A DNA stretch of 64,000 nt, taken from an uncultured Acidobacteriota bacterium. GTDB taxonomy: Bacteria > Acidobacteriota > Vicinamibacteria > Vicinamibacterales > CAVVIG01. The position numbers were made by a program, and so were the translations under genes. Positions 25,921-29,789 of the stretch are shown here, one piece after another. How positions within the stretch are numbered: position 1 is the first letter of the stretch; each line of letters starts with the position of its first letter. The notes beneath the pieces are model-generated. The model was not told the DNA's origin and did no database searches. It saw only the letters and a list, made by a program, of their open reading frames with translations. The stretch is taken from the NCBI GenBank assembly GCA_902825985.1, contig CADEDC010000004.1, forward strand, positions 68,686 through 132,685, written 5' to 3'.

Positions 25921-28101
25921 CTACGGGGTGCCGTCCCAGATGCGCACCCGCCGGATCACGTCGCCCACCTGCAGCCGATCGACGACCTCCATCCCCGACA
26001 GGACCCGCCCGAACACGGTGTAGCGCGCATCGAGATGCGGCTGCGGCGATTGCGTGATGAAGAACTGACTGCCGCCGGTGTCCTCCCAGTCGAGCGCCAT
26101 GCCGAGCGTGCCGCGGACGTACGGCCGCTGGTTCACCTCGTCGCGGATCGTGAAGCCGGGCCCGCCCTCGCCGTCGCCGCGCGGATCGCCGGCCTGGACG
26201 ACGAATCCGGGCACGACGCGGTGGACGCCGAGCCCGTCGAAGTAGCCGCGCCGCGCCAGACCCACGAACGTGTCGACGGTCAGCGGCGCGTCGAGCACCG
26301 CGAGCTCGACGTGAATCGTGCCGAGGTCGGTATCGATGAAGAACTGCGTCGAGACCGGCGGCGCGGTGAGGCGCGCGGCGTTGTAGAACCCGTCGGGCCG
26401 GCGGCTGGGTACCGGACGGATCCGGGTGTCGGCGTCGCTCGAAGGGTCGAGTCGGCGCTGCAACTCGGCGGCGCGCACCCGCACCGCCCACTCCCGGTCG
26501 CCGAGCGCCTCGGTCAGGGTCGCCGCCGCCTCGGGCGAGCCGAGGTCGGTCAGCGCCGTCAGCGCCGCCGCGCGCGCAACGTAGGTCGTGTCACGCTGGC
26601 CGAACCGATAGGCCTCGGCCAGCGCACCACCGGCATCGGTCAGCTTCAGCTCGGCCAGCCCGCGCGCCGCTGCCGCCCGGACGACCGCGTCATCAGCCTG
26701 CAGGCGGGCGCGCAGAATCGCGCCGGCGTCGGCCGGCTTCAACCTGGCGAGGGCCGCGAGCACGGATGGGATCACCCGCTGATCGCTGTCGTCGAGCAGC
26801 GCGCGGAGACGCGGCAGTCCGGCCGCGGCCGGCAGCGTGCCCAGGATGTCGGCCAGCGCCGCACGGCCGCGCCAGTCGGCATCCAGATCGAGGCTGGAAA
26901 GGACGAACACGAATCCGGTCGGATCCCGCTGTGCAATGGCGCGCAACGCCGCGGCGCGGATTGTCGTCGACGGATCGGCGAGCGTGTCGAGGAGCGGATC
27001 GTTCAACCCCGGGTCGGGAACCGCGCCCGATGCCTGGACCGCCTCCAGCCGCAAGTACGGATCGGCCTTCGGATTTTGAATCAAGGCGAGCAACGCCGGT
27101 CCAGCCGCCGCGGCGCCGAGCCTGGCCAGCGATCGGATGGCTTCGACCGCCGTCATCCGGTCGGGCCCGGCGACGAGCGGGATCAGCACCGCCGCCACCG
27201 CCGGATCCTTCATGGCCCCGAGCCCCTTCACGGCGAAGGCCCGAGTGTACGGATGATCGTCGCGGGCCAGCGTCAGCAGCGCGGCCTTGCCGCGCGGATC
27301 TTCGAGCCGCTGCAACGCGAACGCGACCGGCCACCAGCGCAGCGTCGGCTGGCCGGCGGCGTCCAGCACCACGGCGGCCAGCGCCGAGTAGGCCTTCAAG
27401 CGGACGAGCGAGAAGATCGCCAGGCGCAGCGCCGCCGAAGGCGTGTCGCGCCGCGAGTCGTCGTCGGCGGCCGGCACGGCGGTCACGGCGCCGGCGGCGA
27501 CCAGCTGCGCAGCCATGCGCGCCACGGCCTCGGCCGCCGATGCATCGCCGATGAGGCCGAGCGCCTCGGCGGCACTCGCCTTGACCGGCGGGCTGTCGTC
27601 GTTCAACGCCGCCACCAGCGGATCGCGGCCGCTCCGGTCGCCGATGAGGCCCAGGGCGAACGCCGCCATCTGGCGCACTTCCGGATCCGCATCGGACAGC
27701 AGCCTCGCCAGCGGCGCAACACCCTCGCGCAGCCCGACCCGGCCGACGGCCAGCGCCGCGCGGCGCCGCACGCGGGCTTCGTCGTCGGCGAGCCAGCGGA
27801 TCAGATCGGACGACGGCGGCGGCGGCGGCAGCAGTGCCGCCGGCGCCCGGCGCCCGCGCGGCGCCGGCGGGGGTGGCGGGGCGGGCGGCGGCGGCGGCTC
27901 GCGCAGGCGACGCTCGTCCTCGAGCTGGATGATGGTGGAGAGTTTCTGTTCGAAGGTCGGTCCGGGCGGCGGGGCTGCCGGCGCAGGCGGCACGCTGGCG
28001 CAGCCCGCCGCAGCGAGCACGACACCCAACGCGAACGCGGTGCCTGCGATGTCAGCCGCCACGGCTCGAACGCGGACTGAGACCGTGACGCTGGTACGCA
28101 T
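25921..28101 (-). CDS. Lipoprotein with HEAT repeats fused to a cyclophilin-type peptidyl-prolyl isomerase
   Basis: A 726-residue fusion. A lipoprotein signal ends in LAAAGC with the acylated Cys at residue 34. A Pro-rich linker (about 40-95) is followed by a long HEAT-repeat array (about 100-540; for example VRRRAALAVGRVGLREGVAPLARLL, repeated with EVRQMAAFALGLIGD and PVKASAAEALGLIGD). The last 165 residues form a cyclophilin domain with FFIDTDLGTIHVEL, GVHRVVPGFVVQAGDPRG and GGSQFFITQS, including the Arg of HRVVPGF and the QAGD, FFI residues needed for isomerase activity. Likely a membrane-tethered periplasmic folding factor whose HEAT solenoid recruits clients; this role is inferred. Divergent from the kinase gene. 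Confidence 0.9.
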   Translation of the reverse strand: MRTSVTVSVRVRAVAADIAGTAFALGVVLAAAGCASVPPAPAAPPPGPTFEQKLSTIIQLEDERRLREPPPPPAPPPPPAPRGRRAPAALLPPPPPSSDLIRWLADDEARVRRRAALAVGRVGLREGVAPLARLLSDADPEVRQMAAFALGLIGDRSGRDPLVAALNDDSPPVKASAAEALGLIGDASAAEAVARMAAQLVAAGAVTAVPAADDDSRRDTPSAALRLAIFSLVRLKAYSALAAVVLDAAGQPTLRWWPVAFALQRLEDPRGKAALLTLARDDHPYTRAFAVKGLGAMKDPAVAAVLIPLVAGPDRMTAVEAIRSLARLGAAAAGPALLALIQNPKADPYLRLEAVQASGAVPDPGLNDPLLDTLADPSTTIRAAALRAIAQRDPTGFVFVLSSLDLDADWRGRAALADILGTLPAAAGLPRLRALLDDSDQRVIPSVLAALARLKPADAGAILRARLQADDAVVRAAAARGLAELKLTDAGGALAEAYRFGQRDTTYVARAAALTALTDLGSPEAAATLTEALGDREWAVRVRAAELQRRLDPSSDADTRIRPVPSRRPDGFYNAARLTAPPVSTQFFIDTDLGTIHVELAVLDAPLTVDTFVGLARRGYFDGLGVHRVVPGFVVQAGDPRGDGEGGPGFTIRDEVNQRPYVRGTLGMALDWEDTGGSQFFITQSPQPHLDARYTVFGRVLSGMEVVDRLQVGDVIRRVRIWDGTP

Positions 28102-28110
28102 CAGGGCGCG

Positions 28111-28120
28111 ATGATATCAT
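28111..28120. promoter_or_regulatory. Perfectly palindromic bidirectional -10 element
   Basis: ATGATATCAT is a 10-bp perfect palindrome that reads TATCAT on both strands (28115-28120 plus; 28116-28111 minus), sharing the central TA. Each box is followed by exactly 9 nt before the start codon: TTG at 28130 on the plus strand and ATG at 28101 on the minus strand. No Shine-Dalgarno fits in either gap, so both mRNAs would have at most a few leader bases. Confidence 0.65.
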
Positions 28121-28129
28121 CGTGCCGCC

Positions 28130-28777
28130 TTGCACTTCCGCTACATCGCCGTCGAAGGACCGATCGGCGTGGGCAAGACGGCACTCGCCGAACGCCTCGG
28201 CACTCGCTTCGACGCCACGCTGGTCCTCGAGGAAACCGAGAACCCGTTCCTCGGCGACTTCTACGCCGACCGTCCTGGCGCCGCGTTGCAGGCCCAGCTG
28301 TTCTACCTGCTTGGCCGTCACCGTCAGCAGACCACGCTGCAGCAATCGGACCTGTTCAGCCAGCTCACGATCTCGGACTACCTGTTCGATCGCGACAAGA
28401 TCTTCGCCTACCTGAATCTCGACGACAACGAGCTGTTCATCTATCAACGGCTCTACGATCTGCTGGCTCGCGACGTACCGGTGCCCGACCTCGTCATCTA
28501 TCTGCAGGCGCCGACCGAGGTGCTGTTGAAGCGCCTGCGCGCCCGCCGCGACGACCCGGACACCGATACGCCGACCTACGAACCCGATCCCGAATACCTG
28601 AAAGAGCTCAACGAGGCCTACCAGCACTTCTTCTTCCATTACAACAGCACGCCGCTGCTGGTCGTCGAAACCTCGCAGTTCGGCGACGAGATCTCGGACG
28701 CGACGCTCGACGACCTCGAACGACAGATCCGGACGATGGGTCCGGGCACGCGGTACTACGTCCCGAGGACGAAGTAA
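28130..28777 (+). CDS. Deoxynucleoside kinase
   Basis: A 215-residue P-loop kinase starting with TTG at 28130. The start IAVEGPIGVGKTALAERLG carries Walker A, SDYLFDRDKIFAYLNLDD holds the DR(Y/S/D)-type substrate motif, and DLVIYLQAPTEVLLKRLRARRDDPD supplies the lid arginines. This fits the deoxyadenosine/deoxyguanosine kinase family, which salvages deoxynucleosides in the cytosol; the exact base preference is not deducible. The TTG is supported because it sits at the conserved family N-terminus and no ATG is available nearby. It starts a plus-strand run with accD and folC. Confidence 0.92.
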   Translation: MHFRYIAVEGPIGVGKTALAERLGTRFDATLVLEETENPFLGDFYADRPGAALQAQLFYLLGRHRQQTTLQQSDLFSQLTISDYLFDRDKIFAYLNLDDNELFIYQRLYDLLARDVPVPDLVIYLQAPTEVLLKRLRARRDDPDTDTPTYEPDPEYLKELNEAYQHFFFHYNSTPLLVVETSQFGDEISDATLDDLERQIRTMGPGTRYYVPRTK

Positions 28778-28848
28778 CGCGGTCGTCCGGGCGGCCCGCG
28801 GCCCGTCACCGCCGGCCGCGGGTCAGCTCGACGGCAGCGGAACTTTGA

Positions 28849-28854
28849 TAGAGT
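28849..28854 (+). promoter_or_regulatory. Candidate -10 box immediately upstream of accD
   Basis: TAGAGT lies 8 nt before the accD ATG (28863), and no Shine-Dalgarno is present. It fits the leaderless-promoter pattern seen at several genes here but is a weak -10 match on its own. Confidence 0.4.
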
Positions 28855-28862
28855 CTTCTCGA

Positions 28863-29789
28863 ATGGCCTGGTTCAAGAAAGCCCGCACGCCGATCGCCGC
28901 GACGAAGGAAAAGGCGAGCCGGGTGCCCGAGGGTCTGTGGGTCAAGTGTCCCGGCTGCTCGCAGATCATCTATAACAAGGACCTCACCACCAATCTGAAC
29001 GTCTGCCCGAAGTGCGCCTATCACTTCCGCATCAACGCCACCGAGCGGCTCAAGATTCTGTTCGACGGCGAGACGTGGACCGAGTACGACAAGGGGCTGG
29101 TCTCGACCGACCCGCTGCAGTTCACGGACACCAAGCCCTACCGCAAGCGCCTCGAAGCGAGCGTCGTGGCAACCGGCCTCAAGGAGGGGGTGATCGTCGG
29201 CTCGGGGCGCGTCGAAGGCATCGACACGATCATCGCGGCGCAGGAGTACGGGTTCATCGCTGGCAGCATGGGGGTGGTGGTGGGCGAGAAGCTGACCCGG
29301 GCCATCGAGCGGGCCATCGAGCGCCGCTGTCCGATGGTGATCGTCTGCTGCTCGGGCGGCGCCCGCATGATGGAGGGCACACTGTCGCTGATGCAGATGG
29401 CCAAGGTGTCGGGCGCCCTGGCCCGCCTGGACCGGGCACGGCTGCCCTACATCGCCGTCCTCACGGACCCGACGACCGGCGGCGTCACCGCGAGCTTTGC
29501 GATGCTCGGCGACCTGAACATCGCCGAACCCAGGGCCCAGATCGGTTTCGCCGGCCCGCGCGTCATCGAACAGACGATCCGGCAGAAGCTGCCGGAAGGG
29601 TTCCAGCGCAGCGAGTTCCTGCTCGAGAAGGGGATGCTCGACATGATCGTCGATCGGCGCGAGATGAAAACGGTCATCGCCCGGGCGCTCCGTTTCATGG
29701 GCGCCGTCCCCGCCGCCGACGCCGGAGTCGCCCGGAAGCCCGACGCGGCTGCCGTCGCGGTCGCGGCCGAACCGCCCGCGCAGGCGTGA
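28863..29789 (+). CDS. accD: Acetyl-CoA carboxylase carboxyltransferase subunit beta
   Basis: A 308-residue protein starting MAWFKKART, with the N-terminal zinc ribbon CPGC...CPKC (about residues 32-54) followed by the crotonase-like carboxyltransferase domain (GVVVGEKLTRAIERA, CCSGGARMMEGTLSLMQM, TDPTTGGVTASFAMLGD, IGFAGPRVIEQTI). It transfers the carboxyl group from biotin to acetyl-CoA in the first step of fatty acid synthesis, together with AccA (not in the window). An upstream in-frame ATG at 28845 would add six residues; the family start MAWF is preferred. folC follows immediately, the classic accD-folC pair. Confidence 0.97.
   Translation: MAWFKKARTPIAATKEKASRVPEGLWVKCPGCSQIIYNKDLTTNLNVCPKCAYHFRINATERLKILFDGETWTEYDKGLVSTDPLQFTDTKPYRKRLEASVVATGLKEGVIVGSGRVEGIDTIIAAQEYGFIAGSMGVVVGEKLTRAIERAIERRCPMVIVCCSGGARMMEGTLSLMQMAKVSGALARLDRARLPYIAVLTDPTTGGVTASFAMLGDLNIAEPRAQIGFAGPRVIEQTIRQKLPEGFQRSEFLLEKGMLDMIVDRREMKTVIARALRFMGAVPAADAGVARKPDAAAVAVAAEPPAQA

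Follow-up and report, generated by a model that had tools for sequence, protein, structure and literature searches.

A palindrome of two superimposed extended -10 elements as a candidate bidirectional promoter between leaderless-type genes in Vicinamibacterales

Bidirectional promoters have been found through RNA-end mapping in a few model bacteria, and to our knowledge their evolutionary upkeep has hardly been studied. In the symmetric class described by Warman and Grainger, a -10 element, often located between divergent genes, is read on both strands (PMC12825309, PMC10268837). Common separations of the two transcription starts are 18, 10 and 23 bp, with an optimum of 7 bp between the -10 and the start, and binding by one polymerase excludes a second (PMC12825309). 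Extended -10 promoters (TGnTATAAT) have a TG on the upstream side of the hexamer, separated from it by a single base, and lack a recognisable -35. Leaderless genes are characterised by TANNNT near the start codon, by the lack of a Shine-Dalgarno sequence and by a genome-wide positional peak of the motif; their share in Acidobacteria is 9.7–19.4%, with an average of 13.3% (PMC3160421). Overlapping divergent promoters, with one leaderless transcript, are known from M. tuberculosis lysG-lysE, but there the gap is 108 bp long and includes a regulator, and the only leaderless start is provided by a separate promoter (PMC5648196). A literature search of partial coverage gave no precedent for one bidirectional promoter shared by two leaderless genes.

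The locus presented here lies in the genome of a Vicinamibacterales (Acidobacteriota) MAG, in a 64-kb stretch of DNA analysed as a whole and called the window below. Two divergent genes are separated by a 28-bp gap (28102–28129), which on direct reading runs cat (28099–28101), CAGGGCGCG, ATGATATCAT, CGTGCCGCC, ttg (28130). The features are as follows.

28130–28777, plus strand: deoxynucleoside kinase gene (dNK, PF01712), TTG start; an in-frame TGA at 28112 excludes an upstream start. Downstream of it lie homologues of accD (assigned by Pfam), folC and lptD (both assigned from their sequences by eye).
25921–28101, minus strand: gene for a HEAT-repeat protein with a cyclophilin-type PPIase and a lipoprotein-like N-terminus (HEAT-cyclophilin), ATG start.
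28111–28120, both strands: core ATGATATCAT, in which each strand reads as an extended -10 element, TGATATCAT, and the two overlap completely.
28109–28122: perfect 14-bp palindrome CGATGATATCATCG of the window genome.
28115–28120, plus strand: -10 hexamer TATCAT for dNK, 5/6 matches to TATAAT, with TG (-15/-14) at 28112–28113.
28111–28116, minus strand: -10 hexamer TATCAT for the HEAT-cyclophilin gene, with TG at 28119–28118.
28127, plus strand: predicted transcription start, 7 nt after the -10, leaving the 3-nt leader GCC before TTG; alternative at 28130.
28104, minus strand: predicted transcription start, 7 nt after the -10; purine alternatives at 28102–28101, at or next to ATG.

An earlier note on this DNA had described TATCAT on both strands at 9 nt from ATG 28101 (minus) and from TTG 28130 (plus), and this description is exact. 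Its ten-letter core at 28111–28120 is right as well, although the perfect palindrome extends further, to 14 bp. The order TGA TAT CAT ... start is the codon order in both frames, so that the palindrome supplies an upstream stop on either side (28112 in the plus frame); since this TGA closes both frames, ATG 28101 and TTG 28130 are the first possible starts. Direct reading of the 28-bp gap revealed no Shine-Dalgarno sequence before either start and no -10 other than the palindrome, and a standard scan found no match to a conventional -35/-10 promoter at the gap. Whichever 5' ends hold, a ribosome-binding site could not be accommodated. In general terms the palindrome may be written as ATGNTANCAT, that is, TGnTAnnnT superimposed on its own reverse complement. 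The C at the fourth base of TATCAT follows from this arrangement, since it must pair with the G of the opposite-strand TG.

We consider it likely that the palindrome works as a promoter of the known bidirectional, symmetric -10 class, directing mRNAs that are leaderless or carry leaders of at most 3 nt. How polymerase would use the site, where the 5' ends would lie and how translation would begin we infer from the sequence, its conservation, grammar and context, and the genome-wide leaderless-type signal. The two extended -10 elements, exactly overlaid on opposite strands as ATGNTANCAT, would form a bidirectional core promoter for which a -35 would not be required. The housekeeping sigma factor would open the same few base pairs either way, with one polymerase at a time. 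A right-facing polymerase would start the dNK mRNA from about 28127–28130, and a left-facing one the HEAT-cyclophilin mRNA from about 28104–28101. Both messages would have no leader or one of up to about 3 nt, would lack a Shine-Dalgarno sequence and would be translated by leaderless-type initiation.

Genomes of the order, together with 80 named contigs, supplied 95 distinct aligned loci consisting of dNK and the DNA upstream of it; the relatives are MAGs of Acidobacteriota group 6/Vicinamibacterales, and genes outside the window were called with a simple program based on codon usage. Several Vicinamibacterales-like contigs (L080, L129, L132) are deposited as Bifidobacterium breve, Acidimicrobiia and Cyanobacteria, names that are apparently wrong. 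The core ATGATATCAT is identical at dNK in 25 of the 27 same-family genomes, which come from bacteria of soil and water and represent 17 of 18 genera, and these 25 loci form one group in the dNK tree (support 91/97). At the same loci the ten core bases are invariant, while pairwise identity falls to 52% in the flanks and 55% at fourfold sites of dNK; columns upstream of the core are not conserved in the same-family alignment. The note had proposed comparing related genomes to see whether the palindrome and its 9-nt arms are conserved, with loss of the palindrome in close relatives as a refutation. The palindrome is conserved; the arms are not, ranging in most cases from 6 to 10 nt. On the dNK side 7–10 nt separate the box from TTG/GTG in the same-family loci. 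On the minus side TATCAT stands 6–7 nt from GTG in most relatives; the window and the relative nearest to it have 9 nt to their ATG, and in some relatives (L083, L087) the minus start lies tens of nucleotides away. The equality of the two arms, which the note had tied to the symmetry, is a coincidence of the window genome. Read from these alignments, what is conserved is ATGNTANCAT with its two overlapping extended -10 boxes, and not the 9-nt arms. In most of the 25 genomes both messages are predicted to begin at their start codons or no more than about three bases from them.

The leaderless part of this reading was examined in 464 kb of the genome with a home-made gene caller. TANNNT peaks 6–9 nt before starts, where it precedes 44 genes versus about 16 expected from neighbouring distances, and the spacings at the palindrome loci agree with this peak. 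By this measure some 8% of the genes look leaderless, which is near the published Acidobacteria range. The accD gene next door offers another leaderless-type extended -10 start, with TTTGATAGAGT 8 nt before its ATG (window 28845–28865). In the window the A of the -10 box is 14 nt from the start codon on both sides, at the edge of the 8–14 nt leaderless range; the corresponding minus-side distance in most relatives, about 11–12 nt, falls inside it. In comparison with the leaderless genes described so far (PMC3160421), TANNNT lies near the start here too, but two starts share one element, the 9-nt spacing is at the far edge and one start is TTG. The predicted starts rest on the optimal 7-bp spacing of PMC12825309, and the geometry predicts starts 23 bp apart with 7-nt spacing, or 29 bp apart if they coincide with the codons; the former is one of the common separations of that class. 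Since the 7-nt spacing puts the 5' ends at 28127 and 28104, "leaderless" may in fact mean "ultra-short leader", and because 9 nt is the long edge of leaderless spacing, a leader of 1–3 nt and no leader at all are equally likely. From the geometry we lean towards starts at 28127 and 28104, or a mixture of these with codon starts. What the note had called leaderless keeps its TANNNT-type spacing without a Shine-Dalgarno sequence, while the usual spacing would give leaders of about 3 nt.

Both window starts are imperfect for leaderless translation. One is TTG, and the other is one codon off the ancestral start: most relatives begin with GTG one codon earlier; the window lineage has CTG at that codon and ATG at the following one, where the others have ACG. 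In well-studied bacteria TTG works poorly as the start of a leaderless message, and this counts for the explanation that the promoter is bidirectional but translation is not leaderless, most of the protein coming from longer mRNAs initiated at upstream promoters inside the opposite gene. The low basal activity of the bidirectional promoters tested in E. coli (PMC12825309) speaks for it as well. Against it, neither start is preceded by a Shine-Dalgarno sequence, and most of the order retains a -10 at 7–11 nt from the dNK TTG/GTG; we regard this explanation as rather unlikely.

The palindrome was also sought beyond the dNK locus. Its length alone was rejected as evidence, as the window includes 18 perfect 14-bp palindromes. 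The 14-bp CGATGATATCATCG occurs as a single exact copy in the 5.85-Mb genome, while ATGATATCAT has two copies versus about 0.7 expected, both in short divergent gene gaps; the excess by count is weak, and the evidence lies in the position. Across the 27 same-family genomes there are 39 copies of ATGATATCAT, 25 at dNK and 10 at pgsA. The latter mark a second conserved gap, between pgsA and an NDP-sugar nucleotidyltransferase gene (MKAILLAGGKGTRLRPLT), found in the own genome (L036 ~1501, C83:3374–3383) and in L157, L158, L166, L170, L171, L177, L179, L182 and L184; most other members have ATGTTATCAT there. For the general form ATGNTANCAT, a reversed-pattern control was too lenient (0.015 expected per genome), and therefore the palindrome ATCNTANGAT was used as control. 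Four of five ATGNTANCAT sites in this genome lie in divergent gaps of about 28–58 nt, versus none of five for ATCNTANGAT. In a family sample of this genome and nine relatives, with the own dNK and pgsA sites left out, 15 of 43 ATGNTANCAT sites lie in divergent gaps versus 2 of 41 control sites (Fisher p 5e-4), the ATGNTANCAT sites being not fully independent because the recurrent pairs are orthologous groups. These pairs, named from reading N-termini, are ispG/quinone oxidoreductase (L267, L268, L273, L275, L285), xerC-like/murQ (L218, L270, L277) and gatC/MEMO-family (L274, L281). In the window the general 10-mer ANNNTANNNT shows no enrichment, with 16 occurrences versus 22 expected, which indicates that only the extended form carries the signal.

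A perfect and exactly conserved palindrome might also be expected of an operator for a dimeric regulator of one or both genes, its likeness to a -10 being secondary. A few copies in relatives do stand beside VapBC-like antitoxin genes in operator-like repeats: in L178 (~1501) and L183 (~1001) ATGATATCAT adjoins antitoxin-like ORFs with repeats such as TGATAGCAATGATATCAT, possibly toxin–antitoxin operators. The same repeat is present in L185 (~1001), where no gene was called. The other sites, however, serve functionally unrelated housekeeping pairs (dNK, pgsA, ispG, xerC/murQ, gatC), and the natural variants are not what an operator half-site would lead one to expect. At the dNK and pgsA gaps only the two N positions of ATGNTANCAT change, giving ATGATAGCAT at the dNK gap in sister lineages and ATGTTATCAT at the pgsA gap. 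These variants break the two-fold symmetry at orthologous gaps and keep the TG, the TA and the final T of the extended -10 on both strands; in one further clade ATGATAGCAT precedes a dNK gene that starts with ATG and has a longer leader. Where the palindrome is lost, the loss is compensated before dNK: most dNK genes of such lineages have TATACT or a close form 9–11 nt before TTG/GTG, which suggests that the plus half acts as a -10. This turnover is the behaviour of a promoter; replacement by TATACT would not be expected of an operator. In a clade of eight (L111, L113, L127, L132, L134, L135, L137, L140) the gap between menC and dNK carries ACTATACT, reading TATACT rightwards, 10 nt before the dNK start, and TATAGT leftwards, about 7–8 nt before the menC start; both boxes are at leaderless-type distances, and the element is a different symmetric solution in the same gap of another clade. 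As the 28-bp gap of the window moreover holds no further -10, an operator is an improbable explanation.

Another possibility is that the element is a promoter for one gene only, its other half being symmetric by chance and the second gene being expressed from elsewhere. If dNK alone required a fixed extended -10, most of the ten bases would already be conserved on that account. The minus half (ATGATA) shows the same invariance, however, with the GTG of menC or the HEAT gene 6–7 nt away in most loci, and a second promoter would not fit in the gap outside coding sequence. The minus half can also stay where dNK has moved to TATACT (ATGATATCAC in L022, ATGATAGCAT in L034), and this persistence argues for a function of its own. 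We therefore give a one-sided promoter little chance.

The history of the minus-strand neighbour concerns the same half. At the 25 palindrome loci the neighbour is menC in 11 and the HEAT gene in 14, the window being among the 14, where menC is absent. In the menC loci menC starts with GTG, in general 6 nt away from TATCAT, with the HEAT gene directly behind it; the loss of menC would thus have brought the HEAT gene, which sat just beyond, under the same element. In L077 the HEAT-cyclophilin gene opens with a menC-like start, GTGAAGATCGATCGC, which suggests that menC was deleted there and its start codon reused. To judge from these loci, the palindrome has kept its sequence while the gene served on the minus side changed. 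A chance palindrome in a short gap, for which the 18 in the window might speak, is practically refuted by conservation, namely the invariance in 25 genomes, together with the same grammar at other divergent gaps.

The view that one bidirectional -10 serves two leaderless or near-leaderless genes, already put forward in the note, is accordingly supported, and every sequence-level prediction that could be tested here held. Bidirectional promoters and leaderless genes are known classes. What appears new is the palindromic double extended -10, its exact conservation through neighbour replacement, its recurrence, and the service of two leaderless-type genes at once. Unlike the symmetric promoters of PMC12825309 and PMC10268837, the element has extended -10s on both sides, fused into a perfect 10-bp palindrome; conservation over 17 genera and through the replacement of a neighbour is documented here, and both mRNAs are predicted to be (near-)leaderless, which those papers do not describe. 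Like extended -10 promoters it has the upstream TG and no recognisable -35, but it is symmetric and bidirectional, with the C at the fourth hexamer base imposed by the opposite TG.

The broader proposal is that in Vicinamibacterales selection maintains ATGNTANCAT as a bidirectional core promoter complete in its 10 bp, wiring several divergent housekeeping pairs (dNK-menC/HEAT, pgsA-NDP-sugar nucleotidyltransferase, ispG-quinone oxidoreductase, xerC-murQ, gatC-MEMO family) to one opening site, with two leaderless mRNAs at dNK; we hold its chances to be about even. If it is true, it would provide phylogenetic evidence that such promoters are selectively maintained and are not a mere by-product of -10 symmetry. 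The element is a candidate for a minimal bidirectional promoter, being conserved exactly across the family, surviving the replacement of a flanking gene and recurring between other housekeeping genes. The rule of two superimposed extended -10s predicts which bases may change, and ATGNTANCAT offers a computable signature for searches elsewhere. If the 5' ends are confirmed, two leaderless genes on one opening site would represent an extremely compact divergent arrangement.
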